Part shown: positions 19,566 through 60,553 of the stretch, piece by piece
Layout of the letters: the number at the start of each line of letters is the position of its first letter
How positions within the stretch are numbered: position 1 is the first letter of the stretch
Assembly (NCBI GenBank): GCA_023382655.1
Contig: JAHDWK010000006.1
Coordinates: forward strand, 248,001 to 312,000
Origin: Anaerolineae bacterium
Lineage (GTDB): Bacteria; Chloroflexota; Anaerolineae; Promineifilales; Promineifilaceae
Reading direction: 5' to 3'
DNA length: 64,000 nt
Position numbers and translations under genes: made by a program
The notes under the pieces: model-generated
What the model saw: only the letters and a program-made list of their open reading frames with translations
What the model was told of the DNA's origin: nothing
Database searches by the model: none

Positions 19566-19614
19566 CGTGATGTGTGATGCGTGAGAGCTTTCTGGTCACG
19601 CATCACGCATCATG
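19566..19614. repeat. CGTGATG heptamer array (hairpin)
   Basis: Seven 7-bp units (CGTGATG, TGTGATG, CGTGAGA, GCTTTCT, GGTCACG, CATCACG, CATCATG): three forward, a spacer unit, three reverse-complement. Same family as 45688-45736. Confidence 0.85.
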
Positions 19615-20853: not shown

Positions 20854-20895
20854 GCAAGTGGCAAGTAGCAGGTTGCAGGTGATCACTTGCCACTT
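20854..20895. repeat. GCAAGTG heptamer array
   Basis: Units GCAAGTG, GCAAGTA, GCAGGTT, GCAGGTG, then ATCACTT and GCCACTT in reverse orientation. It lies between the divergent M23 gene and aceK. Confidence 0.75.
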
Positions 20896-20928
20896 GCTAC
20901 CGTTCTATCTCTCGTAAGCCAACCGCGC

Positions 20929-20934
20929 TATACT
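20929..20934 (+). promoter_or_regulatory. -10 element immediately before aceK (possible leaderless start)
   Basis: TATACT ends six bases before ATG 20941, so transcription would begin at or near the start codon. No clear -35 or Shine-Dalgarno is seen. The P-loop kinase at 35745 has the same spacing. Confidence 0.35.
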
Positions 20935-20940
20935 TCCGTC

Positions 20941-35744: not shown

Positions 35745-36317
35745 ATGATGTTCATGCCAACAAACATACCATGCCCAAACATCATTCTTATCACCGGCAA
35801 CATGGCTTCGGGAAAATCAAGTGTGGCTCAAGCCCTGGCAGAACGACTGCCCAAGAGTGTTCACCTGCGTGGTGATTTGTTTCGCCGCATGATCATAAAC
35901 GGCCGTACCGAAATGACATTCAATTTGTCTGCCGAAGCCCACCAACAACTTCTGCTGCGCTATGACCTGGCAGTTACCACCGCCAAACGTTACGTTCAAG
36001 CCGGATTTACCGTGATCTATCAAGATGTTATTATTGGCGTTGCGCTGCGCGATGTATTGGCTTCATTTTACCCCTATCAGCCCGGTGTTGTGGTATTATG
36101 CCCGCGCCCGGATGTGGTGGAAATGCGTGATCAAGCTCGTCAAAAAACCGGTTACCCTGACCGGGCATCTGTAGAGACTTTTGATCACATTCTGCGTTCT
36201 GAAACGCCCCACATTGGTTACTGGCTCGACAATTCTGATCTGTCCGTAATCAAAACGGTTGAGGCTATCTTGCACCATTTTGCCGAAGCAGCCATTTCAC
36301 AATCCTATGCCAAATGA
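35745..36317 (+). CDS. P-loop nucleotide kinase, zeta-toxin/phosphotransferase-like
   Basis: A 190-residue AAA-type P-loop protein with Walker A GNMASGKSS (about 18-26) and a following HLRGDLFRR strand-loop, as in chloramphenicol-phosphotransferase-like and zeta-type kinases; a second strand TVIYQDVIIG and the Arg-rich EMRDQARQK lid fit a small-molecule kinase. The substrate is unknown. The last 11 bases overlap selA, which suggests translational coupling, but a link to selenium is only contextual. ATGs at 35745, 35748 and 35754 are all possible starts. Confidence 0.6.
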   Translation: MMFMPTNIPCPNIILITGNMASGKSSVAQALAERLPKSVHLRGDLFRRMIINGRTEMTFNLSAEAHQQLLLRYDLAVTTAKRYVQAGFTVIYQDVIIGVALRDVLASFYPYQPGVVVLCPRPDVVEMRDQARQKTGYPDRASVETFDHILRSETPHIGYWLDNSDLSVIKTVEAILHHFAEAAISQSYAK

Positions 36318-37707
36318 TTCTTCACAAATAAAACTGCGCGAACTACCAGGGGTAGATCGGCTGCTACAAATGCCGGACACGGCCGTCCTCCTCTCCCTCT
36401 ACGGCCGTACCCTCACCCTTGAAGCCCTGCGCCACACGCTGGAGAGTGTGCGGTCGGGCCTATTGCAGGGTCGGGTCACGGCCGTGCCCCCGGCGCCGCT
36501 CCTCATCCAATCGGCCACCGACTGGCTGGAAAATCTGCTCACCCCCAGCCTGCGCCCTGTCATCAACGCCACCGGCGTCATCGTGCATACCAATCTGGGG
36601 CGCGCCCCACTCAGCCAGGCGGCCCGCCAGGCCATAGACGCCGCCGCTCGCAGCTACAGCAATCTGGAATATGACCTGGTCGCCGGGGAGCGCGGCTCGC
36701 GCCATGCCCACGCCACCCAACTGCTGCCCCACCTCACCGGGGCCGACAGTTCAATGGTGGTCAATAACAATGCCGCCGCCGTTTTACTCATGCTCACCGC
36801 GTTGTGTCACGGCCGTCAGGTCATCATCAGCCGGGGCCAATTGGTGGAAATCGGCGGGGGTTTTCGCATCCCGGACGTGATGGCCCAATCCGGGGCCACC
36901 CTGGTAGAAGTGGGCACGACCAACCGCACCCACCTGCGCGACTATAGCCGCGCCATCAACGAGCAAACCGCCGCCATCCTGGTGGCGCACCATTCCAATT
37001 ACAAGATCGTCGGTTTCACCAGCGAGCCATCATTAGCAGAACTGGCGGAACTGGCGCACACTCACCATTTGCCGCTGCTGTTTGACCAGGGCAGCGGCGC
37101 GCTGCTAGACACATCCCCCTTCGGTTTAGACCCGGAACCAACCGTGCCGGACGGCATTCAGGCCGGTTGTGATCTGGTCGCCTTCAGCGGCGACAAACTG
37201 TTGGGTGGGCCGCAGGCGGGCATCCTGGTGGGGCGGGCTGACCTGATCGCCCGCTGCCAGCAGCACCCCCTGGCGCGGGCGGTACGCGCCGACAAATTGT
37301 GCCTGGCCGGATTGGCCGCCACACTGACCCATTATGCCCGCGATGAGGCGCTCACGGCCGTACCCGTCTGGCAGATGATAGCGATGTCGTTGGCAGAGAT
37401 AACGGCCGTCGCCGAGAATTGGCTTACCCACTTACAGGCAAACGGCATAACCGCCGAGTTGATAAATGGGGAGTCCACCGTCGGCGGCGGCAGCCTGCCC
37501 GGAACCAGCCTGCCCACCTGCCTCATAGCTTTATCGCCCACCAATCCCGACGCCCTGGCTGCCCGGCTGCGGGCCGAAGCCATACCGGTGATTGGGCGCA
37601 TTCAAGACGGCCGTTACCTGCTAGACCCACGCACCGTTTTGCCCGAACAGGTTGATAATTTGCGGCAATCGCTGGTAAACTGTGCAAAAGAGGAGATTGG
37701 CGATTAG
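36307..37707 (+). CDS. selA: L-seryl-tRNA(Sec) selenium transferase
   Basis: A 466-residue PLP enzyme that converts seryl-tRNA(Sec) to selenocysteinyl-tRNA(Sec). Landmarks: INATGVIVHTNLGRAPLS, the SNLEYDLVAGERGSRH stretch, VVNNNAAAVLL, and the PLP Lys297 in FSGDKLLGGPQAG. ATG 36307 (MPNDSSQIKLREL) gives the family N-terminus and overlaps the upstream kinase gene. selB, selD and a tRNA-Sec gene were not found in the window. The C-terminus IGD and the TAG are encoded by a GAGATTG heptamer array. Confidence 0.92.
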   Translation: MPNDSSQIKLRELPGVDRLLQMPDTAVLLSLYGRTLTLEALRHTLESVRSGLLQGRVTAVPPAPLLIQSATDWLENLLTPSLRPVINATGVIVHTNLGRAPLSQAARQAIDAAARSYSNLEYDLVAGERGSRHAHATQLLPHLTGADSSMVVNNNAAAVLLMLTALCHGRQVIISRGQLVEIGGGFRIPDVMAQSGATLVEVGTTNRTHLRDYSRAINEQTAAILVAHHSNYKIVGFTSEPSLAELAELAHTHHLPLLFDQGSGALLDTSPFGLDPEPTVPDGIQAGCDLVAFSGDKLLGGPQAGILVGRADLIARCQQHPLARAVRADKLCLAGLAATLTHYARDEALTAVPVWQMIAMSLAEITAVAENWLTHLQANGITAELINGESTVGGGSLPGTSLPTCLIALSPTNPDALAARLRAEAIPVIGRIQDGRYLLDPRTVLPEQVDNLRQSLVNCAKEEIGD

Positions 37708-37743: not shown

Positions 37744-38748
37744 ATGACCACATTAACCAGAATTCTAGCCATCGAAACCTCCTGTGATGAAACGGCCGCC
37801 GCTGTGGTGGAAAACGGCCGTACCATTCTCAGCAACATCATCGCCAGCCAGGTTGATTTACACGCGCAGTATGGTGGCGTCTTCCCGGAGGTGGCCTCAC
37901 GCCGCCACATTGAGGTCATTTACACTGTGGTCAACCAGGCGTTGGAAACGGCTCATCTGGGACTGGACGATGTGGATTGTGTCGCTGTCACGCAGGGGCC
38001 AGGATTGGTAGGCTCACTCCTGGTGGGGGTGAACATGGCCAAAGGATTGGCCCTGGCCCGTAATAAACCGCTGCTAGGCATTAACCATATTGAGGGACAC
38101 ATTTACTCCTTGTGGCTGACCGAAGAAGCCGAGAATTTCACCTTTCCCATTTTGAATCTGGTGGTCAGCGGTGGGCACACGGAGCTGTATCTGATGGTGG
38201 AACACGGCCGTTACCAACACCTGGGTGGCACGCTGGATGACGCCGCCGGTGAAGCGTTTGATAAAGTGGGGCGGCTGTTGGGGCTGCCCTTCCCTGGCGG
38301 CCCGGCCATTGACCGCGCCGCCCGCAGTGGCAATCCCCAGGCATACAAATTTCCGCGTGGAGTGATGGATGATGGTTTTAACTTCAGCTTCAGTGGCTTG
38401 AAGACGGCCGTGCTGCGCCAGGTTCAACCCACCCCGGCCAACCGGCGGCCCATTCCCGACCTGGCTGCCAGCTTTCAAGCCGCCGTCGTAGACGCCCTGG
38501 TGACAAAAACGGAACGGGCGGCCCAGGCATATGGGGTCACGGCCGTGCATCTGACCGGTGGCGTCTCCGCCAACAGCGCCCTGCGGCAGACCATGAAAGA
38601 ACGCCTGGCCGTACCCGTTCGCTTCCCACCGCCCATCCTCTGCACCGATAATGCGGCCATGATTGCTGCTGCCGCTCATTGGCATTTTCTTACAGGGCAC
38701 CAACATTCGCTCGATCTGGATGTCATTCCCAGCCTGCAATTGGTATAA
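37744..38748 (+). CDS. tsaD: tRNA N6-adenosine threonylcarbamoyltransferase TsaD
   Basis: A 334-residue ASKHA-fold enzyme that, with TsaB and TsaE, puts the t6A modification on tRNAs reading ANN codons. Features: AIETSCDETAAAVV at the N-terminus, metal ligands His115 and His119 in NHIEGH, VVSGGHTELYLM, the GEAFDKVGRLLGLPFPGGP block, and LTGGVSANSALR. The start at ATG 37744 follows the repeat array after selA. TsaB and TsaE are not in the window. Confidence 0.94.
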   Translation: MTTLTRILAIETSCDETAAAVVENGRTILSNIIASQVDLHAQYGGVFPEVASRRHIEVIYTVVNQALETAHLGLDDVDCVAVTQGPGLVGSLLVGVNMAKGLALARNKPLLGINHIEGHIYSLWLTEEAENFTFPILNLVVSGGHTELYLMVEHGRYQHLGGTLDDAAGEAFDKVGRLLGLPFPGGPAIDRAARSGNPQAYKFPRGVMDDGFNFSFSGLKTAVLRQVQPTPANRRPIPDLAASFQAAVVDALVTKTERAAQAYGVTAVHLTGGVSANSALRQTMKERLAVPVRFPPPILCTDNAAMIAAAAHWHFLTGHQHSLDLDVIPSLQLV

Positions 38749-45687: not shown

Positions 45688-45736
45688 CGTGATGCGTGAT
45701 GCGTGACCCGTGAATCGTCACGCATCACGCATCACG
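45688..45736. repeat. CGTGATG heptamer array, 20-bp hairpin
   Basis: Seven 7-bp units (CGTGATG, CGTGATG, CGTGACC, CGTGAAT, CGTCACG, CATCACG, CATCACG). Arms 45688-45707 and 45717-45736 are perfect over 20 bp. Confidence 0.88.
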
Positions 45737-45759
45737 ATTTACGGAACACGGTTCACGCT

Positions 45760-48700
45760 ATGACAACGGACGCCGAGAGCATGACGGAAGAGCAAGAAGC
45801 AGGGGAGGACACGGCCGTACCCACTCCACCGCCGCCTCCCGAAAACAACATATTCCCCACCGAACCTGCGCCGCGCTCATTCAGCCTGGAAAACATCGCT
45901 TTCCTGTTTGTGCTGCTCGTCTTATTGGTGGGCGCATACTTCCGTTTCACCGGCCTCAATTGGGATGGCAGCTATCATTTGCATCCCGACGAACGTTTCC
46001 TGACCACCGTTGCCAACCAATTGCAGCCCGTCTCTTCCCTCACCGGCTACCTGCGCACCTCCGAATCCACCCTCAACCCATACAACAAAGGGTTTGGGTT
46101 TTACGTGTACGGCAACTTCCCCATGACCCTCACCCGTTATGCCGCCGAGCTGCTCACCCGCGCCTGCACCACCCTGGCCCAAAACAACCCAGACCAACCG
46201 CCCCCCTGTCCCTACGTCTTCACGGCGTATGATGGCGTGCATCTGTTCGGCCGTTTCCTGTCTGGGTTAGTAGATTTAATCTCCGTCCTCTTTACCTTCC
46301 TCATGGGGCGGCGGCTGTATGGCTGGAAGGCGGGCATATTAGCGGCGCTGCTGCTGGCATTGGCCGTCATGCCCATCCAGCAGTCCCACTTCTTCACCAT
46401 GGACAATTGGGCCGCCGCCCTGACAACGATCACGCTGTACACGGCCGTGCGCGCTGCCAGTCTTGGTGACCAAAAAGCCACCCCGCGCCTGCATTGGTAC
46501 GCCCTCTTTGGTCTCTTCTTCGGATTGGCCGCCGCTTCCCGCATCAATATCGCCCCCTTAGCCCTCATCGTCAACGTCGCCGCCGTCATCTGGCTGCTAC
46601 AGCGCGGTCACAGTTGGGACAGCCTGCTCAAAACTGCGCCGGGCCACGCCGACATCCAGCGCGTCATCCTGGGCGTCTTGCTCGCAGCCGTCATTTCCAT
46701 CATCACCTTCCGCCTGGCCATGCCCTACGCCTTCGCCGACGCCACCATCATCCGCGAGCAAACCCTGGCCGAAACCGGGCAGGAGCCAGACGCATTGCGG
46801 GCGACTTTAGGCGCGGTCTTTGGTTTCAACCCCACATGGCGCAGCAACATGTCCGAAATTCAACGGCTGCAAGAGCCAGACGCCTCTTTCCCCCCTGCCC
46901 TGCAATGGACCAACCGCACCCCCATCCTCTTCCCGCTGACCAACATGGTGCTGTATGGCATGGGCCTCACCGCCGCCATTGCCAGTTGGTTTGGCTTCTT
47001 TTGGGCCTTGTGGCGCATTTTGCGGGGACGGCCCGAGTGGGTAGCCCACGCCATTCCGGTGGTGTGGACGGGCATGTATTTCCTCTTTATGGGTACCCGT
47101 TGGGTCAAATCCATCCGCTACTTCCTGCCCATCTACCCCGCCCTCTTCCTGCTCGGTGCATGGGCGCTGCTCACCATCTGGCAACTGGCCGCCCAACGCG
47201 ACCACGACCGGGGCCAATTCTTCCGGCGCACTTTAGCCGCCGGGTTGATTTTGCTCACCGTCGTCCCCAGCTTCCTGTGGGCCAACGCTTTTGTGCAAAT
47301 CTACCATAACCAGTTCACCCGCGTCGCCGTTTCCCCCTGGATGTTTGAGAATATCCCCACCGGGGCCACCTTAATTTATGAAACGGCCGCAGGTGAACAA
47401 GAGCTACATTTGCCGTTGAAATGGTTTGAATTTGTGCCCGGCGGCCCCACCCTGTTCCTCGGTTTTACGCTGCCGGAAGATGGCACGGTCACGGCCGTGC
47501 GTTTCAACTATTTGCAACTGCCACCCGAATTGGGCAACGGGAGTTCACAAACCCATACCTTTGCCGCCAACCTCCCCTCAGTCGGCGGTGAAAGCATTAG
47601 CACCGACATCACCGTGACCGGCGAACGCGCCCCGGCTTTGCTTGACCTGCCAGACACACCCCTCACCGGTGGCATGGCACAGCAGTTACAGGTACAGATG
47701 CTGTCTAATGGGCGCGTTTTGGCCGATACCAGCCGCTTCCTCACCGAACATTGGGATGATTTGCTGCCGGTGGCGCTGGACGGCCGTTACCCCTTTGGCA
47801 GCTACTACACCGAAGTGCAAAACAGCCAGCGCCCCGTCACCAACCCCGACGACATGCTCAAACGGGACGAACTGGTGGCCTGGCTGGACGAAGCCGACTA
47901 CGTGGTGATGAGCAGCCAGCGCGCCGTCTGGCATCTGCCCCGCCTGCCCCTCACCTACCCGTTGATGATTCGTTATTACGAGGCGTTGTTCAACGGTGAA
48001 CTCGGTTTTGAACTGGTCAAAGAACAACATGCCGATCTGCACATTGGCCCGCTCTATATCAGCGACACCGCCGGAAAGATTAGCTGGGGCAAACCGCCCA
48101 ACGTTGGTTGGCCACCACCCGGCGACCTGGCGGCTGAAGAAGCATTCAGCGTCTACGACCATCCGCCGGTGTGGATTTTCCACAAGACGGCCGATTACGA
48201 CCGGGACAAAATGGTGCAGTTGTTGGGCGCGGTAGACCTGACACAGCAGATGTTCCAAACGCCGGGACAGGCCACGCGCACCCCCAACGCCCTCTTCCTC
48301 AGCCCGGCAGTGTTGGCCGTGCAGCGGGCCAACGGCACGTTCAGCGAGCTATTTAACCTGGACGGTGTGCTGAACCAGAACCCAACGCTGGCGGCGGTGG
48401 TCTGGTGGTTGGCGGTGGTGCTGTTGGGCTGGCTGGCGTTTCCGCTCACGGCCGTAGTCCTGCGTGGCCTGCCCTCCAAAGGCTACCTCTTTGCCCGCGT
48501 CTTGGGGATGCTGCTCGTCTCCTACTTTGGCTGGCTGCTGGCGAGTTATGATATTTTGCCCAACACTGCCGGGACGCTGTGGTTGGGTGTGCTTCTGTTG
48601 GGCATCGCCAACCTGCTGATCTTCCTGCGCCGCCGCGCCGACATCGCCGGTTGGGTGCGGCAAAATATAACCTACATTCTGACGGTCGAGGCCATTGCCC

Positions 48701-50904
48701 TGGCGCTGTTTCTGATTGCCATTTTCATCCGCCTGGGCAACCCCGACCTGTGGGACGTGATTTGGGGCGGCGAAAAACCGATGGATCTGACGTATTTCAC
48801 GGCCGTACTCAAATCCACCACCTTCCCGCCCTATGACCCCTGGTTTTCCGGGGGCTACCTCAACTACTACTACTACGGCTTCGTGTTTGTTGGCGTCTTG
48901 CCCAAACTCTTGGGCATCATGCCCACCCTGGCCTACAACCTCATCCTGCCCATGCTGTTCAGCTTCACCGGCATGGGCGCCTTTGCCCTGGCGTATGATC
49001 TGGTCTTTCACTATGACAAGGTGACAAGGTGGCCAGGTGACAAGGTGACAGAAGATCACCCCGGCGTCCCCGCCGCCGTCACCTTGTCACCCCGTCATCC
49101 CCGCCGCCGTCACCTTGTCACCCCATCACTTACCGCCGGTCTCATCGCCGCTGCCCTCGCCGTGCTGCTGGGCAACCTGGCGCAGGTGGGGGTGATTACC
49201 AATGCCTGGTACCGGGCGGGCAACCCGACGGTTGAGGAGATTGTGCCGGTGGTGGGTACGGCCGTGCGCACCCTGGAAGGTGGCATCAGCCTCATCGGCG
49301 AAAAAACCGCGCCCATTTACCCTGGCGACTGGTTCTGGACCGCCTCCCGCGCCATCAACGCCGACCCCGGCGAAGCAGGGCCAATTACCGAGTTTCCCTT
49401 TTTCACCTTCCTCTATGGCGACCTGCATGCCCATATGATCAGCCTGCCGCTGATGCTGCTGGCGCTGGCCTGGGCGGTGGGATTGGCCTTGCAGCCATCG
49501 GGCGTGACCAGACCTGACAGGTCTGGCAGACCTGTCAGGTCTTCATGGTGGGAAACGGCCGTGCAGTGGCTCAGCGGCAGTATCATCTTTGGCGTGTTTC
49601 AGGCGGTCAACAGTTGGGACTTTCCCACCTTCCTGGTGATTGGCGCGTTGGCCATCTTTTTTTACAGCTACCAGATGCATGAGAGCAAATTGAGCCTGCC
49701 CATGTTGGGCACGGCCGTGATGCAGATTTTCCTGCTCTGGACGCTGGCTTTCATTTTTTACCTGCCCTTCAGCAACAATTTTGCCGCCGGGTTCAATTCG
49801 GTGGCGTTGTGGGATGGTTCGCAGACCTATCTCAGCCGCTACCTCATCATGTGGGGTCTGTTCCTCTTTTTTATCGTCGGCTACCTGTTCATCGAGTTCC
49901 GCGATTGGGCCAAAAGCTGGACGTATGAGGGGATGCAGGCCATGGAGATAGCCAGGATACCGTTGTTGATTACGGCCGTTCTCTACGTCCTGCTCCTACT
50001 GATATTATGGCGGCTGCAATACTGGGTGGCACCGGTAGCCCTGACGCTAACACTGGCCGCCGGTCTGCTTGGTTTGCGCCGTCGGCTCTCGCCTGCCCGG
50101 CGCATCATCCTCATCCTCATCGCCTCCGCATTGGGGCTGACGCTGTTCGTGGAATTTTTTGTGGTGGAAGGCACCCTCGACCGGATGAACACGGTGTTTA
50201 AGGTGTATATGCAGGTGTGGTTGATCATGAGTGTGGTGGGCGGGGTCACGGCCGTGTGGTGCTGGCAGCGCCTCAAAAACGCCCCAACCGGCAAAATCGT
50301 CTGGGCTTCGGCGCTGGCCGTGCTGGTCGTTGCCGCCGCCCTTTACCCCATCCTGGCTACCCGCGCCAAATGGGACATCCGCATGAACAAAGACGCCCCA
50401 CACACCCTCAACGGCATGGACTTCATGCCTTACATCACCTACCAGGAAAACGGCCAGACCGTGCCGATGGTCTTTGACCACGATGCCATCTTATGGATTC
50501 AGCGCCACCTGCCCGGCTCCCCCGTTATCGCCGAAGGGTACAGCGACAACTACTACCGCTCCATCACCAATCGCGTGGCTATGTACACCGGCCTGCCCAA
50601 CATCATCGGTTGGAGCGGTCACCAGCGGCAGCAGCGGGCGGCCCTGCCCGGCACGATGATTGACATGCGCATTCAGGATGTACACCTGCTGTACACCACC
50701 ACCAGCATCCCCGAAGCGCTGAGCATCATCCAGAAATACGGCGTGGAATACATCTATGTGGGGCAATTGGAATGGGTGTTATATAACCCTGAGGGTTTGC
50801 TGAAATTTGAGCAAATGGCGGACGCCGGTTTGTTGGAAGAGGTCTACCGCAATGACGGGACAAGCATTTATCGCGTCACGGACGCTCCGGTAAATACACA
50901 ATGA
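45760..50904 (+). CDS. giant membrane glycosyltransferase: GT39/ArnT-like domain fused to a Chlor_Arch_YYY (DUF2298) domain
   Basis: A 1714-residue polytopic protein. Residues about 40-640 form a GT-C module with [13 protein letters not shown] in the first outer loop, the acidic site used by PMT/ArnT-type sugar transferases. The second half resembles Chlor_Arch_YYY proteins: a [23 protein letters not shown] lead, [15 protein letters not shown], and the [20 protein letters not shown] motif near residue 1040. It probably transfers or processes lipid-linked sugars at the outer face of the membrane. Two repeat elements are translated in frame, at 49012-49128 and 49510-49542. The gene overlaps the next by ATGA, so they are coupled. 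ATG 45760 lacks a clear Shine-Dalgarno. Confidence 0.8.
49012..49128. repeat. GGTGACAA/TTGTCACC repeats inside the YYY gene
   Basis: A coding copy of the CACCTTGT intergenic family: 14-bp inverted arms 49036-49049 and 49078-49091, with a further copy at 49109-49122, and a 31-bp tandem duplication (49067-49097, 49098-49128; one mismatch). It is translated as a charged, Pro-rich loop. Confidence 0.85.
49510..49542. repeat. AGACCTGACAGG palindrome inside the YYY gene
   Basis: 16-bp perfect arms (49510-49525, 49527-49542) identical in design to the intergenic family; encodes [13 protein letters not shown] between membrane helices. Confidence 0.9.
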
Positions 50905-53600
50905 GTATGACGCCGATTGATGAAATTTTGATGGTGCTGCGCTGGTGGCTGGCACTGGTGGTGGTGGGCACGGCCGTAACCCCCCTCACCCTCCACCTGC
51001 TGCATCGCCTGCCTGACCGGGGCTACGCCTTCGCCAAATTGTTGGGGCTGCTGCTAACCAGTTATCTTTTTTGGCTGTTGGGCAGCCTGGGTATCTTGGG
51101 CAATAACCTGGGCGGTATTCTGGTGGCGCTGCTGGCAGTGGTGGGCTTTTCCATTTGGGCCTGGCAGCAGGGGCGGGCCGAAATCATTGGCTGGCTGAGT
51201 GGTAACTGGCGCTACGTACTGCTGACAGAACTGCTGTTCCTGGTCGTTTTCCTGCTGTGGGTATGGGTGCGGGCACAAAATCCGGCCATTGTAGCTACCG
51301 AAAAGCCGATGGATTTCGCCTTTTTGAATGCCATCGGCCGCAGCCCGTCTTTCCCGCCACTGGACCCCTGGCTCTCCGGGTACGCCATTAGCTACTACTA
51401 CTTTGGTTATCTGATGCAGTCGGTGTTGGCGCGGCTCACGGCCGTGCCCGAACCGTATGCGTTCAATCTCGCCATTGCCTGGTTGGTAGCGGGTACGGCC
51501 GTGGGCGCATTTGGCCTGGTTTACAATCTGGTGGCGGCTTACGGGCCGCAGGCCAGGCGAGCCGCCATAGGTCTGGGGCTGGTGGCGGCCATGGCCATCC
51601 CCATTGCCGGCAATCTGGAAATTGTGTTGGAAGCAGCGCATGGTTACGGCTATGGTTCGCCGCAGTTTTGGGCCTGGCTGGATGTGCGCGACCTGAGCGA
51701 TGCGCCCGACCCGACCACACCACCGCGTTATGAAAATGCCTTCTGGTGGTGGTGGCGCTCCTCCCGCCCTATCAACGAATACAGTTTAAGTGGTCAGCGC
51801 ATCGAAGGGTTAGAACCGATTGTGGAGTTCCCCGCCTTCAGCTTTATCCTGGGCGACCTGCACCCGCATGTGATGGCGCTGCCGTTTGCCTTTCTCAGCC
51901 TGGGCGTGGCGCTGGCATGGTATTTGGGTTTTGACGCAAAGGCGCAAAGGGGCAAAGAGGGCAAAGAAGAAGAAGGAGAAGAAAAATCTGCGGAATCTGT
52001 GAAATCTGTGGATTCATTCTTAGCGCCGTTGACGGGATTGGTGCGGGAGGTGGGGGCGCCGTTGTGGCTGCTGACGGCCGTGATCCTCGGCGGCCTCTCT
52101 TTCCTCAACACCTGGGACGTGTTGATTCACCTCTTTGTGGTGTTGGGCGCATTTTTTCTGGCGCAGTGGCGCAGCCGGGGCTGGTCGAGCGAAATCGTGG
52201 TCAAGACATTTTATCTGGCGCTGCTGCTGGTGATCCCGGCAGTGTTGTTTTATTTGCCATTCTATTTTGGCTTTCGCTCTCAGGCAGGCGCGCCCTTCTT
52301 GCTGCCCATGCTCAACCGCCCCACGCGGATGGCGCAGTTTCTCATCGTTTTTGGTCTGCCGTTAGGCACAATTACGGTTTTGCTGATGGTGTTGGCGATC
52401 AAGCAGCGATTCCGGCAGTGGAAAGTGGGGGTGGGCACGGCCGTGTCCTTTCTCCTGATTCTTTTCCTGCTGGCGCTGCTCTTTAGCTGGGTTGTGGCCA
52501 CCTCGGCAGAAGGGGCTGGCCGGGTGATCAATCTGGCGGCGGAATTGGGCATCCCCCTAGCGACACGACCAGAAGGTTTAGCGCCAGGGTGGGCAGTTAC
52601 GGCCGTGTTTGCCATCCTACCTGCCTACCTGCAAGCCCGCCTGGCCTTCCCCGCTCTCACCTTGCTGCTGGCTACCCTCCTCGCCCTCGCCGTCATGGTC
52701 TTAATGGACACGGTGACAGGGTGGCAAGGTGAAGGCGGCGAAGACGCCGCGGTGACAGAAACGTCTCCTGTCACTCCTTCCCCCCTTCACCGTCCGATTG
52801 TGGCAATCGGCGTCACCGTGTCACCACTGCCGTTCGCCTTGCTGCTCATCATCACCGGCATTTTGCTGACGCTGGGGCCGGAATTTTTGTATTTACGGGA
52901 TAATTTTGGGGTGCGGCTGAACACCATTTTCAAGTTTTATTACCAGGCGTGGGCATTGTTTGGCGTGGCTGCTATCTTTGGGCTGTATGCGCTGTGGCAG
53001 GCCACGTCTGGCGCCACAAAGATCGTGCCAGTGTTGACGACGGCCGGCTATGGGCTGGCGCTGCTGCTGTCGCTGCTCTTTCCGTTTTACGCCGTGCAGT
53101 CCCGCGCCGTCGAGTTTCGCGGTCGGGTAGGCGCTGAATTCCGCCAGCCGCCCACGCTCAACGGGCTGGCAGCTATGCAGAACTTTAACTTTGACGAATA
53201 CGCCGCCATTTTATGGCTGCGCGAAAATGCCGAGGGGGCGCCCGTCATTTTGGAGGCGGTGGGTGGGCAGTATTCGGAGTACGGCCGTGTCTCCGCCAGC
53301 ACCGGGTTGCCCACCCTGCTTGGCTGGGCCGGGCACGAATACCAATGGCGCGGCAGTTCCACGCAAGAACCGGCCGTGCGTGACCCGGCCGTGCGCGATA
53401 TTTACACCGCTTCCACCTGGGAAAACAGTAACGCCGCCCTGCTGTTGAATGATTATGGCGTGGAACTCATCTACCTGGGCCAACTGGAACGCAACACATA
53501 TGGCCTGCTCGGCCCGGCCCTGGATAAATTCAGCGACCGATTGGAAGTGGCGTACCAAAATAACTCTGTTACGATTTATCGGTGGCTGCCAGAGGAATAA
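50901..53600 (+). CDS. Chlor_Arch_YYY (DUF2298) membrane protein
   Basis: An 899-residue polytopic protein, paralogous to the C-terminal half of the preceding gene: [40 protein letters not shown], and [20 protein letters not shown] with the YYY motif, followed by [22 protein letters not shown] 50901 overlaps the upstream TGA (ATGA). Two loops are made of repeat-derived sequence: 51937-52015 (charged [15 protein letters not shown] followed by [11 protein letters not shown]) and 52709-52790 ([18 protein letters not shown]). The C-terminal soluble part (about 780-899) includes [16 protein letters not shown]. The biochemical role of YYY proteins is not established; linkage suggests surface glycan assembly. 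Confidence 0.8.
51937..52015. repeat. repeat-like insertion coding a charged loop
   Basis: Short-unit sequence such as GGCAAAGAGGGCAAAGAAG and AATCTGTGAAATCTGTGG encodes a highly charged loop between membrane helices in the second YYY protein. I infer a dispersed repeat from its style; no second copy is seen in this window. Confidence 0.5.
52709..52790. repeat. GGTGACAG repeat sequence inside the second YYY gene
   Basis: GGTGACAGGGTGGCAAGGTG and a later GGTGACAG...CTGTCAC pair belong to the TCACCCTG intergenic family but are translated here. Confidence 0.6.
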
Positions 53601-53606
53601 GATTGG

Positions 53607-53634
53607 GAGATTAGAGATTGGAGATTGGAGATTA
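53607..53634. repeat. GAGATTG heptamer array carrying a start codon
   Basis: GAGATTA, GAGATTG, GAGATTG, GAGATTA. The only reasonable start of the following gene, TTG 53618, lies in the second unit. Confidence 0.75.
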
Positions 53635-55393
53635 TTCAAACACCCCTTTAGTTGAATCACCTGCACAAAGCTGGTGGGAACGGCTGACAATTGCTGATGG
53701 TTTGTTTGTCCTGGTCGTGATCCTGGGTAGTGTGCTGCGTTTTGTGGATTTAGGGCGCATACCCCTTTCCGCAGCCGAGGCAGAACTGGCTTTGGCCGTC
53801 TGGCGCTTCTGGCAGCCGGGTAACGCCGAGATTGCTCTGAGCAGCCCGGCCTATTTCACATTGACCAGCCTGCTGACGCAAATTTTTGGCTTTAGTGATG
53901 GCGTCATGCGGCTGGTACCGGCGCTGTTTGGACTGGCGGTGGTTTGCCTGCCCTGGCTGCTGCGGCGGCAGTTAGGGGATGCGGGCGCGCTGGTAGTTTG
54001 TGGATTTCTGGCGATTTCGCCGCTCAATGTCATCTTGTCACGGACGGTGGGGGGTGAGGCCATTGCCCTGTTTGCCGTGTTTTTGTTGGCGGTAGCAGTG
54101 ATGCGATATGCGGACACGCCGGCACTGAGCGGGGGCAAAGTGGCCGCGCCTCACTGGCTCTATCTGGCAGCGGCGGCTATGGCTTTAGGCTTTACCAGCG
54201 CCCCCCTCTTCTACAGCGGACTGGTCACACTGGTGATCGTATGGGTCGTCATCCGGCTCTTGAAACTATCACTGTTCCCCGAAAGAGAACCTCTTGACCG
54301 TCGTACCTGGCGCAATACGCTGTTGGTGGGCGGCGGTGTTTTTGTCGCTTTTAGCAGCAAACTGCTTTGGGTCACCGCCGGTTTTGGCGGTTCGGCGCAA
54401 ATTTTGGGTACGTGGGTAGCCCAAATCGGTGGTGATGACAGTGGGCGTATCCTGGCTGACCCGTTTCTGGCGTTGGCGCGATATGAACCGGCGTTGGTCA
54501 TTTTAGGTGTGGTAGCCGTTTTGTGGGCATTGTGGCGCGCCTCTGTCTCTGGACTGGCGCTGGTTTACTGGTTGCTGGCGGCGCTCATTCTCATGCTATT
54601 TCAGCCGGGCATAATGAGCAATGCAGCCCTGGTCACGCTGCCTGGCTACCTGTTGGTCGGGCTGCTGGCAGGGTTGATCTTATCCGAACGTCCTATGACC
54701 GGGCTGACCTGGATTGTGGCCGGCGGTGTCTTTTTGTTTTGCATGTTGATGCTGGTGAATCTGGGCCGTTTTGTGCGCGTGGTGATATTTGACCCCAATG
54801 AGATTCAATATCTGGCAATGATGATCATAGGTCTGGCACTGCTGGCGGTGCTGCTGTATCTGGTATTGACGTTGGATGTCACGGCCGTGACCCAGGGCCT
54901 TCTCTTGGGTCTTATTGCCTTCCTGGTGATCATTACCTGGGGCACGGGCTGGTGGCTGGGCCATCTGGCGGCCAATGATCCCCGCGAACGCTGGGTGCAA
55001 TCAGCAACGGATAGTGACATTCGCCTGTTGGTGACTACGCTGCAAAGCCTGTCGTCCCAACTGTCGGGCAGTGATACGGATTTGGATGTAGCCAGTAGTG
55101 TAGACACGACCGTGCTGCGCTGGTATTTGCGCAGTTTCCGTAATGCCCGCATCGGCCAGACGTTACCGGCCGGCGGGGCGGACGTTCTTATCACCTCGGC
55201 CCAGGCAGAACCGGCGCTGGCCAACAACTACAGCGGGGCAGATTTTGGCCTGTCGCTCTATAAAAACCCGCCGGAACAACAAGTCATCAATGTCCGCACA
55301 TTTACCGATACGTTGCGCTGGTGGTTTTTCCATGACAGCCCGGCACAACCCGCCAATGAGCGCGTGATTGTGTGGGTGAAGGCGCAGGAGTGA
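53618..55393 (+). CDS. polytopic GT-C-like membrane protein
   Basis: A 591-residue membrane protein with about a dozen hydrophobic segments and a C-terminal soluble part (about 465-591). The first loop VDLGRIPLSAAEAELALAVWRF resembles the acidic loop of ArnT-like glycosyltransferases, and the position in the YYY cluster supports a sugar-transfer or polymerisation role, but key catalytic residues are uncertain. No ATG or GTG lies near the N-terminus; TTG 53618 within a GAGATTG repeat is the probable start, giving the N-terminus MEIGDYSNTP. Confidence 0.62.
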   Translation: MEIGDYSNTPLVESPAQSWWERLTIADGLFVLVVILGSVLRFVDLGRIPLSAAEAELALAVWRFWQPGNAEIALSSPAYFTLTSLLTQIFGFSDGVMRLVPALFGLAVVCLPWLLRRQLGDAGALVVCGFLAISPLNVILSRTVGGEAIALFAVFLLAVAVMRYADTPALSGGKVAAPHWLYLAAAAMALGFTSAPLFYSGLVTLVIVWVVIRLLKLSLFPEREPLDRRTWRNTLLVGGGVFVAFSSKLLWVTAGFGGSAQILGTWVAQIGGDDSGRILADPFLALARYEPALVILGVVAVLWALWRASVSGLALVYWLLAALILMLFQPGIMSNAALVTLPGYLLVGLLAGLILSERPMTGLTWIVAGGVFLFCMLMLVNLGRFVRVVIFDPNEIQYLAMMIIGLALLAVLLYLVLTLDVTAVTQGLLLGLIAFLVIITWGTGWWLGHLAANDPRERWVQSATDSDIRLLVTTLQSLSSQLSGSDTDLDVASSVDTTVLRWYLRSFRNARIGQTLPAGGADVLITSAQAEPALANNYSGADFGLSLYKNPPEQQVINVRTFTDTLRWWFFHDSPAQPANERVIVWVKAQE

Positions 55394-55397
55394 GACG

Positions 55398-55442
55398 AGA
55401 CCTGACAGGTTGGCAACCAATGGTTGCCAACCTGTCAGGTCT
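55398..55442. repeat. 22-bp AGACCTGACAGG palindrome
   Basis: Arms 55398-55419 and 55421-55442 are perfect over 22 bp around one base, between the GT-C-like gene and the ECF sigma gene. Likely terminator or attenuator. Confidence 0.9.
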
Positions 55443-55450
55443 GTAAAAGT

Positions 55451-56059
55451 ATGATTTTAGAACAAACACTGCTACCCCGGTCTGAGGCCGCTCCGTATGC
55501 CGACGTAGAAAACGAGGCGGTGATTGCGCGCTGCCTGGTGGGTGAGGAAGCGGCGTATGTGGCGCTGTATAACCTGTATGCCGGGATGATTTACCGGCTG
55601 GTTTACAGTATGTTGCAGGATCGGGAAGATGCGGAAGAGGTGCTGCAAGATAGTTTTGAATACGCCTTCCGCAAATTAGGTGACTTTGACGCGCACAAGT
55701 CAGCGTTTAAGACGTGGCTGTATCGCATTGCCATCAGCCGCTGCCACAACAAGCGGCGGCGCAAATGGCTGCCTACCTTCTCGCTCAGCCATCAGGACGC
55801 CCGGCAAGCAGCAGATGAGGAGACGCCCACACCCGATGAAACGGTGCGCCTGACGGAAACGCAGCAGGCGGTATGGCACGCTTTACAACAGTTGACGCCC
55901 AAGCTGCGGGAAACGGCCGTCCTCCGTTATTACGAAGGGCTGTCTTACCAGGAAATCGGCGACATCCTGGGCATTCCGGCCAAGACTGCCGAATCCCGGA
56001 TGCGGTTGGCGCATCAGGCGTTGAGAGATCTGTTGCAGGAGCAGCTAGACAGACCCTAA
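55451..56059 (+). CDS. ECF-type RNA polymerase sigma factor
   Basis: A 202-residue sigma factor with region 2 (about 25-95; YNLYAGMIYRLVYSML, DAEEVLQDSFEYAFRKL and FKTWLYRIAISRCHNKRRRK) and region 4 (about 140-195; LRETAVLRYYEGLSYQEIGD, ILGIPAKTAESRMRLAHQAL). It lies inside the surface-glycosylation cluster with a membrane partner downstream, so it may control these genes in response to envelope stress (inference). ATG 55451 is just beyond the palindrome. The ending DRP plus TAA is encoded by the AGACCCTAAGGG palindrome, exactly as in the GH31 gene. Confidence 0.88.
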   Translation: MILEQTLLPRSEAAPYADVENEAVIARCLVGEEAAYVALYNLYAGMIYRLVYSMLQDREDAEEVLQDSFEYAFRKLGDFDAHKSAFKTWLYRIAISRCHNKRRRKWLPTFSLSHQDARQAADEETPTPDETVRLTETQQAVWHALQQLTPKLRETAVLRYYEGLSYQEIGDILGIPAKTAESRMRLAHQALRDLLQEQLDRP

Positions 56060-56083
56060 GGGTTTCAGAACCCCTTAGGGTCT
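56051..56083. repeat. AGACCCTAAGGG palindrome ending the sigma gene
   Basis: Arms 56051-56066 and 56068-56083 match with one mismatch; TAA of the sigma gene is at 56057-56059. Same element as 6543-6575. Confidence 0.88.
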
Positions 56084-56092
56084 TCCAGGACT

Positions 56093-56527
56093 ATGATCGA
56101 ATCACCACATTTGCACGACGAGGAACAGATGGCCCGACTGGTGCGCAGTACAGTGCAGGCGGCAGGGCAGATAGATAACGGCCGTCTGCGCCAACTGATG
56201 CCGGCTATTCCCACTCACCGCTCACGCCCGGTCTGGCAACGCCAACTAGCGACGGCCTGTGCCGCGCTGCTGGTTTGCCTGGGGCTGTTTGGGGTGTACC
56301 GGGCCGGCGAGCCAGGAGCCGGGATTGCGCCCACCTATGTCGCCATCACCGCCACCCTTCCCAGCGAAGCGACCCTCCCCAGCGAAGCGACCTTTACCAG
56401 CGAACCAACGGCCACGGAAACACAAACGGTCACGAGTACGGCCGTGGCCCAACCGCGTGTAGCTATTACCCCTGCCCCACCGACGCCGGTAGCGGCGCTA
56501 CCGTTGGCCGTAAACCGTAATCCGTGA
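56093..56527 (+). CDS. small single-pass membrane protein, putative anti-sigma partner
   Basis: A 144-residue protein with a cytoplasmic N-terminus of about 50 residues (HDEEQMARLVRSTVQAAG), one membrane helix (about 52-70, LATACAALLVCLGLFGVY) and an extracytoplasmic Thr/Pro/Ala tail with a short tandem TLPSEA repeat. Size, topology and location next to an ECF sigma gene fit an anti-sigma factor, but no zinc HxxxCxxC motif is present, so this is inferred. The C-terminus VNRNP and TGA are provided by a GTAATCC heptamer array, as in valS. Confidence 0.55.
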   Translation: MIESPHLHDEEQMARLVRSTVQAAGQIDNGRLRQLMPAIPTHRSRPVWQRQLATACAALLVCLGLFGVYRAGEPGAGIAPTYVAITATLPSEATLPSEATFTSEPTATETQTVTSTAVAQPRVAITPAPPTPVAALPLAVNRNP

Positions 56528-56579
56528 GGCGTGAGCCGTAATCCGATAACCGTCATAATTCCTAATTCCTAATTACCAT
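56510..56579. repeat. ten-unit heptamer array before the Agl23-like gene
   Basis: GTAAACC, GTAATCC, GTGAGGC, GTGAGCC, GTAATCC, GATAACC, GTCATAA, TTCCTAA, TTCCTAA, TTACCAT in unbroken 7-bp phase. It joins two unit families and contains the stop of the upstream gene (56525-56527). Confidence 0.88.
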
Positions 56580-56584
56580 TTACT

Positions 56585-59500
56585 ATGAGCGAACTGACAC
56601 CCATTCACAAAGAAACAACAACAAATGACTCATTTTTGTCACGGCCGTTAGTGGCCACCTTGAACCTGGATTGGGAAAAGGCGATCTACATCGCTTTTAT
56701 CCTCATCGCCATCATCACCCGTTTCTGGGGATTGGGCGACCGGGTAATGAGCCACGATGAGAGCCTGCACACGCAGTTTTCATACCAGTTCTACCGGGGC
56801 GATGGTTTCAGCCATACGCCGCTGATGCACGGGCCATTTCTGTTCCACATTACCGCCCTCACCTATTGGCTGCTGGGCGCCAATGATTTTGCCGCCCGTG
56901 TACCGGTGGCGCTGTTGGGCATTGTATTGATTATTTTGCCCTACTTCATGCGTCCCTGGCTGGGGCGCGTGGGGGCTATTTTTACCAGCTTCATTTTCCT
57001 CATCTCCCCCTACCTGCTTTATTATTCCCGCTACATCCGGCATGACATCTATGCCATCGTGGCGGCATTGTTGGTCATGCTGGCGCTCTGGTATTACCTG
57101 GATCACAAAGAGGAGAAGTACCTGTGGCTGTTTGCCGGGGCGCTTTCCTGGTTATTTACAACAAAGGAAGTATCGTTTATTTATGTGGCGATTTTTGGCG
57201 GTTTCCTGGTCATCCGGCTGGCGCCACAGTTGCTTACGGCTGCCTGGCTGCCCAAAGTGCGCCGTAGTTTGTTATGGCCGGCCATCGTGTTGGGCGTGGG
57301 TTTGCTCCTGGCGGGCGGCGGGTTTGTTGGCTTCCGGTTGGTGAGCGACACGGCCGTGACCACCCCCACCCCGGAAAGCACCGAACCCTTTGCCGCCGAT
57401 CCAGAGGAGGATACGGCCGTGACCCCCGCCGAACCCAGCACCGCCAACCAGACTGTTTTCCGGTGGCTGGGGCTGGCCGGCGTTCTCACCACCGCTGTCG
57501 CTCTCCTCTGGGGTGTCAGCGCCCTACGCCCCTTCCTGGACAACTATCCCGAATTTGACCTGATCATGCTCTTTTCCACGCTGCTGCTGCCGCTCATCAC
57601 GCCGCTGGCTATGGTCATTATCGGCTGGAACCCTACCGATTACACCCTGGCTACCTGCTTCCTAGACGGGCAGGAGGCAATGTCGCCGCTGCAACTGGCG
57701 CTCACCCGTCTCATCTCGCCCAGTTGGTGGTCATGCTCCATCTCATCCGGGCTGATGCGCATCATATTCCTCATCATTCTCAGCCTGATTGCCTCGATCC
57801 TGGTGGGCATCTGGTGGAACCGGCGGCGCTGGCTCATTGCCGCTGCCATCTTCTACACCATCTTCCTGGTGTTATACACCTCCGTCTTTACCAATCCTAA
57901 CGGCCTGGTTACGGGTACCGTAGGGTCACTTGGTTACTGGCTGGAGCAGCAAGAAGTACAACGCGGCAGCCAACCCTGGTTTTACTACATCTTTGTCACG
58001 CCTTTTTACGAATTCCTGCCGTTTCTCTTCTCCTTGCTGGCAATTCGGCTGTGGTTGATGGGTGAGCGACTATATAAAATTGTGGGCTACTGGCTGCTGG
58101 TCGTTTTGTTGTCCTGGTTTAGTTACAGCCTGATCAACTGGTGGTACAACACCCAGGCTTTAGCCATGGGGCAGGCCATTTCCCGCGTTCCTGGCAGTCT
58201 GGCGGCCGGTCTCATCTTGATTGGCGGGGCGTTGCTCTGGTACTTTGTGCGCGTCCCCCAAATCAAGGATGGATATGGCCTGGCGAATGGATCATTGTTC
58301 GACCTGTTCCGCTGGCAAATTGTGTGTGACTTTATGCCCTTTTTGGTCTGGTGGCTGCTGCTCACCTGGGGCGCTTACAGTTATGCCGGGGAGAAAATGC
58401 CCTGGCTGAGTACCCATTTTGTCATTCCTATGGGGCTGCTTTCTGGCTGGTATTTCAATGAAAAGCTGCAAGGGTTTGACCCACGCCGCCTGTTTAGCAA
58501 AGAGGCGCTGTGGTTCTGGCTGGTTTCGGTCACGGCCGTTGTCGCCTTCTTCCTGGCATTTGGTCCTCTCATCCTGGGAATTGTACCCCTGGGTGACCAA
58601 CAGTTGACCACGTTAAAGAATGTGGGGCGCGTGTTGGGTGGGCTGGTCACTTTCGGTATTGTTGTCTGGTTATGGATCAAAACACGGCAGAAAATTGATG
58701 ATGCCCGTTTGCGCAGCGCCATCTGGTCGCTCAGCATTTTTGCCATCCTGGCCTTCCTCACCATCCGTTTTGCCTACATGGCCACCTTCCCCAACGCCGA
58801 CTACGTCCGTGAATATATGGTTTATGCCCACGGTGCCCCGGCCGCGAAAAGCATTGTCCTGGAACAAATCGGCGAACTGTCACAGCGGTTGTACGGCGAC
58901 AACAGCATCAAAGTCGCCTACGGCGGCAGCGGCGTCCCCTGGCCTTTCACCTGGTACATGCGCCAATACCCCAACTCCATTTACTTTGGCGAAAACCCGT
59001 CCGCCAGCCTGCAAGATTCGCCGGCAGTCATCGTCGGCCGCAGCAGTTGGGACACGGCGGATAATGTGTTGGGGCGGGATTACAGTTACAAAACCTACAC
59101 TTACCTCTGGTGGCCGATGGAAGATTACCGGCAAATTAACTGGAACGCTATTTTGGGCGACCCCAATTTGCCGGAGGGGTCGGTGAAGCGTGGTCTAGGC
59201 AACGCCGACGTGCGCCACGCCATCTGGGACATCTGGTTCTACCGCAATTATGAGAAGTATGACCAGACCTTCGGCCGTACCCACACCGACAGCCAATGGC
59301 CACTGCGGGATGAACTGCGCCTGTACATTCGGAACGACGTGATGGCGCAGTTGTGGGATCATGGCATTTCGCCGGTGAGCGTGGAGCCGGTGGTTGAGCC
59401 GTTCAGCGAAGGTGAACTGCCGGTATCACCGGCGTTGGCGCTGCACGAAGCAGGCTTCCCCGGCGCTGGCCCTGGAGAACTGCTGGCCCCCCGTGACATG

Positions 59501-60553
59501 ACCGCCGCCCCCGACGGCACGATTTTTGTGCTGGACTCCGGCAACCAACGGGTGCAGGCATTTGCGCCGGACGGTGCGTTGCTGCACGAATTTGGTGGGC
59601 CGGGCGCCGGCCCCGGCCAATTCAGCGCCGAGGGACAAGGCCCCTGGGGTATTGCCGCCGACGAGGAATTTGTGTATGTGGCCGACACCTGGAACCATCG
59701 CATCCAAAAGTTCACGCATGATGGCGATTTTGTGATGAGTTTTGGGCAGGCCGGGGACATCAGCCAGGCAGCCGACCAGGGGTTGGGGCTGTTTTTTGGG
59801 CCGCGCGATATTGCGTTATTAGAAGACGGCCGTATGCTTGTCACCGATACCGGTAATCACCGCGTCCAGATTATGGATCGTAACGGTAGTTTCCTGGGGC
59901 AGATTGGCGGGCAGAATGGCATGTCTGGCGGCAGCCTGGGCTTTTTCTATGAGCCGGTGGGTGTGGCCGTAGACCCCAATGGTTTTGTGTATGTGACGGA
60001 TACGTGGAACGGCCGTGTGCAGCAGTTCACCCCCGAATTTTTCCCCGTCAGCGAATGGCCGGTGGAAAGCTGGGCCGGCAACTTCTCCATCAACAACAAA
60101 CCGTATGTCGCCAGTGACAGCGCCGGGCGCATTTACGTCACCGACCCGGAAAACTTCCGCATTCTCATCTTCGGACCCACCGGCAGCTATCTGGGCAAAT
60201 TCGGCCAGTTCGGTACGGACATCAACAGTCTGGCGCTGCCCACCGGCATTTTCATTGATGAACAGGACAATATCTACGTCGCCGACGCGGGCAATAACCG
60301 CGTCCTCAAATACCCACCCATCTTCGCCCCGGCTATCCAGCCGGTAGAGGAAGTCCCCGCTGAGGAAATCCCGGTGGAAGAAGAACCGGCGGAAGAGCTT
60401 CCAGCGGAGGAAATACCGACGGAAGAGAGCGATGTGACGGGAGAAGAAACGCCCACTGAAGAACCAACCGCCACGGAGGAAGAGAGTGAGGCAACGGAAA
60501 CGGCCGTGCCTTCCCCAACACCCCGTCCGGCTACACCGACGCCGACCGGGTAG
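56585..60553 (+). CDS. Agl23-like membrane protein fused to an NHL beta-propeller
   Basis: A 1322-residue protein. Residues about 25-800 are polytopic and match the flippase-activity-associated Agl23 family: VMSHDESLHTQFSYQFYRG and HTPLMHGPFLFHITALTYWLLGA, then YYSRYIRHDIY, and KMPWLSTHFVIPMGLL. An insertion around residues 260-290 is Thr/Pro/acidic and contains TAV tripeptides from ACGGCCGT sites. Residues about 955-1250 hold five or six NHL repeats (VLDSGNQRVQAF, VADTWNHRIQKF, VTDTGNHRVQIM and similar), which form a beta-propeller, most likely extracytoplasmic. A Glu/Pro/Thr-rich tail ends the protein. It probably acts in surface-glycan synthesis with the YYY proteins; the propeller may bind a substrate or partner. 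Confidence 0.8.
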   Translation: MSELTPIHKETTTNDSFLSRPLVATLNLDWEKAIYIAFILIAIITRFWGLGDRVMSHDESLHTQFSYQFYRGDGFSHTPLMHGPFLFHITALTYWLLGANDFAARVPVALLGIVLIILPYFMRPWLGRVGAIFTSFIFLISPYLLYYSRYIRHDIYAIVAALLVMLALWYYLDHKEEKYLWLFAGALSWLFTTKEVSFIYVAIFGGFLVIRLAPQLLTAAWLPKVRRSLLWPAIVLGVGLLLAGGGFVGFRLVSDTAVTTPTPESTEPFAADPEEDTAVTPAEPSTANQTVFRWLGLAGVLTTAVALLWGVSALRPFLDNYPEFDLIMLFSTLLLPLITPLAMVIIGWNPTDYTLATCFLDGQEAMSPLQLALTRLISPSWWSCSISSGLMRIIFLIILSLIASILVGIWWNRRRWLIAAAIFYTIFLVLYTSVFTNPNGLVTGTVGSLGYWLEQQEVQRGSQPWFYYIFVTPFYEFLPFLFSLLAIRLWLMGERLYKIVGYWLLVVLLSWFSYSLINWWYNTQALAMGQAISRVPGSLAAGLILIGGALLWYFVRVPQIKDGYGLANGSLFDLFRWQIVCDFMPFLVWWLLLTWGAYSYAGEKMPWLSTHFVIPMGLLSGWYFNEKLQGFDPRRLFSKEALWFWLVSVTAVVAFFLAFGPLILGIVPLGDQQLTTLKNVGRVLGGLVTFGIVVWLWIKTRQKIDDARLRSAIWSLSIFAILAFLTIRFAYMATFPNADYVREYMVYAHGAPAAKSIVLEQIGELSQRLYGDNSIKVAYGGSGVPWPFTWYMRQYPNSIYFGENPSASLQDSPAVIVGRSSWDTADNVLGRDYSYKTYTYLWWPMEDYRQINWNAILGDPNLPEGSVKRGLGNADVRHAIWDIWFYRNYEKYDQTFGRTHTDSQWPLRDELRLYIRNDVMAQLWDHGISPVSVEPVVEPFSEGELPVSPALALHEAGFPGAGPGELLAPRDMTAAPDGTIFVLDSGNQRVQAFAPDGALLHEFGGPGAGPGQFSAEGQGPWGIAADEEFVYVADTWNHRIQKFTHDGDFVMSFGQAGDISQAADQGLGLFFGPRDIALLEDGRMLVTDTGNHRVQIMDRNGSFLGQIGGQNGMSGGSLGFFYEPVGVAVDPNGFVYVTDTWNGRVQQFTPEFFPVSEWPVESWAGNFSINNKPYVASDSAGRIYVTDPENFRILIFGPTGSYLGKFGQFGTDINSLALPTGIFIDEQDNIYVADAGNNRVLKYPPIFAPAIQPVEEVPAEEIPVEEEPAEELPAEEIPTEESDVTGEETPTEEPTATEEESEATETAVPSPTPRPATPTPTG

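Follow-up and report, generated by a model that had tools for sequence, protein, structure and literature searches.

Several GT-C enzymes can work one after another on a single extracytoplasmic glycan, as do the mycobacterial arabinosyltransferases AftA and Emb, which use decaprenyl-phosphate-arabinose donors. In Gram-positive bacteria, three-component transmembrane glycosylation combines a GT2, a flippase, and a YfhO-type GT-C enzyme, and a polyprenyl-phosphate sugar is used outside the cell. Here, we describe an operon-like run of six genes (45703-60553, + strand) within a 64,000-nt stretch of a 7.7 Mb Chloroflexota genome; the whole stretch is referred to as the window. The genes include members of two families modelled by NCBIfam, Chlor_Arch_YYY (TIGR03662, DUF2298; hereafter YYY) and Agl23 (TIGR03663). 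The operon likely serves to build a surface glycan outside the cytoplasm from polyprenyl-phosphate sugars, with GT-C transferases and without the oligosaccharyltransferase STT3/AglB. The use of a polyprenyl-phosphate sugar outside the cell by a GT-C enzyme, as proposed here for the operon, is shared with three-component glycosylation. Unlike those systems, the operon contains no GT2 or flippase gene and has several GT-C modules instead of one.

Agl23 from Haloarcula hispanica is a putative flippase of Glc/Gal-P-Dol, the donors for extracellular N- and O-glycans (PMC11182771). It suppresses the yeast rft1-delta mutation and, when purified, supports the translocation of lipid-linked M5GN2 in liposomes (PMC11182771). 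The Agl23 protein of the window, P0006, is similar in its above-cut-off TIGR03663 score and in its conserved DE and HGP residues. It differs in carrying a C-terminal NHL propeller, in having an Asp-lacking, sub-cut-off paralogue as an operon-mate, and in the absence of AglB from the genome. For Chlor_Arch_YYY, a search of an open library found no paper on its function. Presumably, the NCBI/TIGRFAM description of TIGR03663 already mentions its occurrence with TIGR03662. An earlier reading of this DNA (the original prediction) proposed a candidate for a new pathway; calling the pathway new is an overstatement, as NCBIfam already has models for both families and an Agl23 from H. hispanica has been the subject of a study (PMC11182771). 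The families are not new; what the present analysis adds is the predicted AftA-like fold of YYY with its candidate residues, a phylum-wide tandem fusion, a degenerate Agl23 paralogue, and the uncoupling from STT3/AglB.

Composition and conservation of the cluster

The features of the cluster and the evidence for each are as follows.

45703..50904, + strand: tandem GT-C fusion P0001 (1733 aa as called), containing DUF2298 (Chlor_Arch_YYY); TIGR03662, PF10060, and predicted N-terminal fold
45838..48342, + strand: N-terminal domain of the fusion, predicted GT-C, 835 aa as modelled, with HPDE at model residues 49-52; AlphaFold2 and Foldseek
48370..50901, + strand: YYY domain of the fusion; TIGR03662 and PF10060, aligned with Bacillota and archaeal YYY
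50901..53600, + strand: stand-alone YYY (DUF2298) protein P0002, 899 aa, predicted AftA-like GT-C fold; TIGR03662, AlphaFold2, and Foldseek
53618..55393, + strand: Agl23 paralogue P0003 (working name AglX); below the TIGR03663 cut-off, hhalign to the Agl23 profile
55424..56059, + strand: extracytoplasmic function (ECF) sigma factor P0004; Sigma70_r2, Sigma70_r4_2, and TIGR02937
56093..56527, + strand: small protein with one predicted transmembrane (TM) segment and a Pro/Thr-rich tail, anti-sigma-like; no family match
56585..60553, + strand: Agl23 protein P0006 with a C-terminal NHL beta-propeller, 1322 aa; TIGR03663 and five stretches of PF01436

The open reading frame (ORF) calls place intergenic gaps of -4, 17, 30, 33, and 57 bases between the six genes, the fusion and stand-alone YYY genes overlapping by 4 bp, whereas the flanking gaps measure 153 and 189 bases. 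Promoter and terminator scans of the cluster gave signals no better than shuffles. ORF calls and family profiles confirmed the predicted grouping of two YYY proteins, a GT-C-like protein, an Agl23-like protein, and an ECF sigma factor on one strand. The description of the genes was accurate, but two features had been overlooked, a small membrane protein (56093-56527) and the NHL propeller that Agl23 carries.

Co-occurrence of YYY and Agl23, which had been set as a check capable of refuting the prediction, was found across 301 Chloroflexota genomes (YYY at E < 1e-40, Agl23 at E < 1e-25). Both families are present in 190 genomes, YYY alone in 8, Agl23 alone in 2, and neither in 101; several of the eight YYY-only genomes are fragmented assemblies. 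Gene-order fractions were taken from 80 loci fetched by YYY alone, a sample that leans towards Anaerolineae, because another 40 loci had been picked partly for YYY-Agl23 adjacency. In 53 of the 66 testable loci, YYY is followed within ~1.5 kb by an Agl23-type gene in the same orientation. Of the 80, 61 have at least two YYY frames and 56 have the fusion.

The fusion N-terminal domain sits in long frames (about 1280-2870 aa) in most Chloroflexota genomes that have it. In a minority lineage, it is a stand-alone gene of ~620 aa adjoining YYY, and in some lineages two YYY domains lie within one protein of ~2500-2870 aa. Extra genes break up the run in some lineages, and Agl23 is found outside the cluster in many Anaerolineales. 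The operon is conserved across most of the Chloroflexota, and some of its gene families are common to archaea. Neighbors in relatives encode GT4, epimerase, methyltransferase, PMT_2, FAD oxidoreductase, and UDP-glucose dehydrogenase proteins, as well as LPG_synthase_TM in many relatives.

Predicted folds and candidate catalytic residues

No Pfam or NCBIfam family, STT3, PMT, and PMT_2 included, matches the first ~850 residues of P0001. An AlphaFold2 model of the domain, built from a 26-sequence alignment (pLDDT 79.9, pTM 0.82), gave 30 Foldseek matches in the PDB at E <= 1e-3, and those listed are all GT-C enzymes. Its fold neighbors include the oligosaccharyltransferases STT3/AglB/PglB, ArnT, Pmt proteins (Pmt4), ALG9/ALG12, AftA, Emb, and DPY19. 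STT3/AglB are the top matches, and STT3/AglB/PglB, ArnT, Pmt4, and ALG9/ALG12 all fall at E 7e-9 to 1e-5 with a Foldseek probability of 1.00. By profile, the domain weakly matches STT3, PMT2, ALG9, and ArnT among PDB sequences and is similar to the Agl23 profile (hhalign 97%, E 3e-11).

In GT-CA enzymes, the tip of juxtamembrane helix 1 (JM1) bears an essential Asp (PMC12041299). In the fusion domain, W42, D43, and H49-P50-D51-E52-R53 are invariant (26/26 sequences), and the model places HPDE at the corresponding tip, where a helix at 50-61 follows a TM helix at 15-37. Based on the fold comparison, the weak profile matches to PDB sequences, and the similarity to Agl23, the domain is assigned a predicted GT-C fold with D51 at the expected Asp position. 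The catalytic-site check that the original prediction had set beforehand thus yielded both a GT-C fold and a predicted active-site position, and the fusion of an ArnT/PMT-like transferase with YYY is real, given this predicted fold and the TIGR03662 match at the C-terminus. The domain shares a GT-C fold and an acid motif with STT3/AglB/PglB, ArnT, and PMT. Unlike them, it falls outside the Pfam STT3 and PMT families and is joined in tandem to a second GT-C module.

TIGR03662 matches P0002 over residues 9-894 (513.8 bits) and P0001 over residues 896-1726 (475.6 bits), both above the curated cut-off of 300.25, and PF10060 covers residues 938-1508 of P0001. In the AlphaFold2 model of P0002 (pLDDT 84.4, pTM 0.89), helix 103-126 is followed by a short loop with E134 and by helices 135-147, 168-180, and 184-212, an order that fits TM1, JM1, juxtamembrane helix 2, and TM2 of a GT-CA module. 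The YYY motif itself (165-167) stands where the second juxtamembrane helix begins. The best PDB match of the model is AftA (E 9.7e-5, TM-score 0.55 by target); the next is PglB (E 0.02-0.04, probability 0.96), and nearly all others are noise. AftA is therefore the closest solved fold to YYY, from which YYY differs by a Glu in place of Asp at the helix tip and by three extra N-terminal TM helices. No sequence similarity to AftA or Emb was found with the YYY profile against PDB sequences. The same search gave chance matches to triosephosphate isomerase alone, which were rejected. YYY looks like a GT-C domain with moderate strength, and this assignment is drawn from the fold alone because the PDB sequence search and the profile comparisons gave nothing firm. 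DUF2298 may already belong to Pfam's GT-C clan.

The JM1-tip residue just before helix 135-147 is Glu (E134) in 32 of 33 YYY sequences, and position 138 is D in 24 and E in 9. D155, H321, E661, D667, R672, N674, and T675 are invariant (33/33). In the alignment, H321, H323, E661, R672, N674, and T675 are retained in Bacillota and haloarchaeal YYY, and the motifs GDLHxH, E661, R672-x-N674-T675, and HExxxR are largely retained in one protein from each group. This conservation is an enzyme-like pattern and suggests that YYY may be catalytic.

A full-length YYY (432 bits) is encoded on plasmid pNP95 of Pseudobutyrivibrio xylanivorans (Bacillota; L195 8938-11193), in an exopolysaccharide-type locus with an O-antigen ligase, GT2s, and an aminotransferase. 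The haloarchaeal YYY gene lies on plasmid pCBA1220-01 of Halarchaeum sp. (L193 21100-22939); it spans the record start, is partial, and is missing from the gene table. No Agl23 gene is annotated near this partial YYY, as judged from the annotation only.

P0006 scores 208.5 bits against TIGR03663 (cut-off 126.25) and weakly matches PMT_2. The HDES motif is invariant in Agl23 (21/21 relatives). P0003 scores 82.7 bits, below the same cut-off, yet aligns over its full length with the Agl23 profile (hhalign E 6e-61); it is accordingly filed, on sequence evidence, as a divergent Agl23 paralogue and not as a TIGR03663 member. In its family, the Glu of the DE motif (E54) is kept in 21/21 operon-mates and the preceding Asp in only 4/21. 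One alignment (A3) holds one stray empty row, so its residues are counted out of 21. The consensus of the 21 operon-mates shows neither HGP nor GEKxPW, two further Agl23 signatures. Since the Asp at the catalytic position is usually lost, the simplest reading is that the paralogue is probably a non-catalytic partner.

Proposed function and alternative explanations

The families, folds, conserved residues, operon structure, co-occurrence, and absence of STT3 observed here suggest a scheme for catalysis, donor type, acceptor, step order, complex formation, and regulation. Most likely, five related membrane modules add sugars to something outside the cell. The GT-C glycosyltransferases would act on the outer side of the cytoplasmic membrane, drawing on polyprenyl-phosphate sugars as donors; enzymes encoded outside the operon would make these donors in the cytoplasm, and they would then be flipped. 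Each enzyme would add one or more sugars to an extracytoplasmic acceptor, either a surface protein, giving an O-linked glycan, or a surface polysaccharide that is linked to lipid. The probable catalysts are of three module kinds, the fusion N-terminus, the YYY domains, and Agl23, whereas the Agl23 paralogue would be a non-catalytic partner and the NHL propeller may bind the acceptor or glycan outside. Surface glycan assembly fits the neighbor genes in relatives and the exopolysaccharide-type YYY locus in Bacillota, and the predicted role as a glycosylation cluster is supported.

Several points weigh against this proposal. AftA is the sole Foldseek match of YYY below 1e-3, and its root-mean-square deviation is high. 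The juxtamembrane-tip acid of YYY is Glu, not Asp, and the conserved residues were placed by alignment and helix order, not by shared-pocket geometry. In profile comparisons, YYY showed no resemblance to Agl23 and only a weak C-terminal match to the fusion N-terminus. The phi of ~0.93 for YYY/Agl23 co-occurrence, counted by hand, ignores shared ancestry. The operon has no polyprenyl-phosphate-sugar synthase gene and no candidate acceptor gene, although S-layer families were not searched for. Moreover, the activity assigned to H. hispanica Agl23 is that of a flippase, not a transferase (PMC11182771).

The last point raises the alternative that the cluster encodes a lipid-linked-sugar translocation unit, in which Agl23 and its paralogue, and perhaps also YYY, act as flippases of polyprenyl-phosphate sugars and the fusion N-terminus is the sole transferase. 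This agrees with the rft1-delta suppression and M5GN2 translocation by the H. hispanica protein (PMC11182771), with the NCBIfam title of TIGR03663 ('flippase activity-associated'), and with the LPG_synthase_TM genes adjoining the cluster in many relatives. However, a dedicated flippase candidate already lies next to Agl23 in many relatives. A flippase alone would not be expected to keep HDES invariant at the GT-C catalytic position, and Agl23 is similar by profile to the GT-C fusion domain and weakly matches PMT_2. We thus regard a translocation unit as doubtful. A looser grouping of separate housekeeping GT-C enzymes, making unrelated envelope glycans and brought together by common regulation or chance, could account for the 16 TIGR03663 matches and many GT-C-like proteins in the genome, for the interruptions of the run, and for Agl23 genes outside the cluster. 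It is quite improbable in view of the gene fusion, the 4-bp overlap, the phylum-wide gene order, and the tight co-occurrence.

The original prediction favored an archaeal-type surface glycan or S-layer glycosylation route; read as N-glycosylation of an S-layer protein, this would imply a pathway acquired with an AglB/STT3 oligosaccharyltransferase. Two observations are in its favor. Among 14 control genomes, only Haloferax volcanii and Methanosarcina acetivorans have YYY or Agl23 above its cut-off, and each has both; in addition, STT3/AglB are the best fold matches of the fusion N-terminus. However, true STT3 (E < 1e-15) occurs in only 7 of the 301 Chloroflexota genomes, and just one of these seven has YYY. 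In the genome studied here, no true STT3/AglB was found, the best PF02516 match being a generic GT-C match (32 bits, E 1.4e-7), and the fusion N-terminus has no STT3 family match. Conversely, the control archaea M. jannaschii and S. acidocaldarius carry STT3 without YYY or an above-cut-off Agl23, and the Bacillota YYY locus is of the exopolysaccharide type. Because STT3/AglB is absent here and from nearly all genomes with YYY and Agl23, archaeal N-glycosylation is unlikely for this cluster, and a route acquired with AglB for an S-layer protein is highly improbable. The cluster is independent of this archaeal N-glycosylation enzyme. The seven STT3-bearing genomes (G162, G256, G242, G170, G178, G082, and G298) measure 1.1-2.2 Mb and mostly lack YYY and Agl23.

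Returning to surface glycan assembly by GT-C transferases, a bolder version is a single membrane multi-enzyme complex, in which YYY is a distinct GT-C family with a Glu/Asp pair and the paralogue is a scaffold, and which builds, with no oligosaccharyltransferase, the O-glycans on surface proteins and filaments of Chloroflexota; we consider this unlikely as a whole. Densities on the archaella of Litorilinea aerophila (Chloroflexota) were read as O-glycans, and repurposed bacterial machinery was suggested, none being named (PMC12488501). The cluster is a candidate for making such probable O-glycans. A search of the genome studied here found no archaellin; therefore, archaella are not the acceptor there. 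More broadly, a phylum-wide, STT3-independent GT-C set that is also found in archaea is a concrete candidate machinery for the poorly understood envelopes of Chloroflexota. With the predicted YYY fold and named residues, the function of the family can be probed by mutating single residues and deleting the gene.

Regulatory genes and other features of the window and genome

P0004 carries sigma regions 2 and 4. Its gene occupies the same position in six close relatives, and three more have it at another place in the cluster. As an ECF sigma factor lies near YYY in 9 of the 80 loci, it is a subset trait and not part of the core of the cluster. In three of these nine loci (L116, L125, and L190), the gene after the ECF gene encodes an H-x3-C-x2-C motif of the zinc-anti-sigma type; the 56093-56527 protein, with its single predicted TM segment, lacks it. 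Where present, an ECF sigma/anti-sigma pair may tune expression to the state of the envelope.

A 7-bp unit, GTGATGC, is iterated, often as inverted pairs, at 45689-45742 and 19567-19613 and genome-wide. GTGATGCGTGATGCGTGA, representing this repeat, has 339 matches with <= 1 mismatch in its own genome, and the reversed control has 0. The repeat overlaps the called GTG start (45703) of the fusion gene, which makes the ATG at 45760, the start originally predicted, likelier. A second homologue of the fusion N-terminal domain lies outside the window (G000:C1:388381-390426, - strand; E 1.5e-137; 693-aa frame). An in-frame TAA is reported in it, and a copy of the 7-bp repeat lies inside it at 389730.

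The window also encodes AceK, the isocitrate dehydrogenase kinase/phosphatase (20887-22680, + strand), with strong matches to both domains. AceK is familiar mainly from Proteobacteria and is thus unexpected in this genome. The gene for SelA (L-seryl-tRNA selenium transferase; 36259-37707, + strand) adjoins a TsaD gene (37744-38748) and suggests selenocysteine use.

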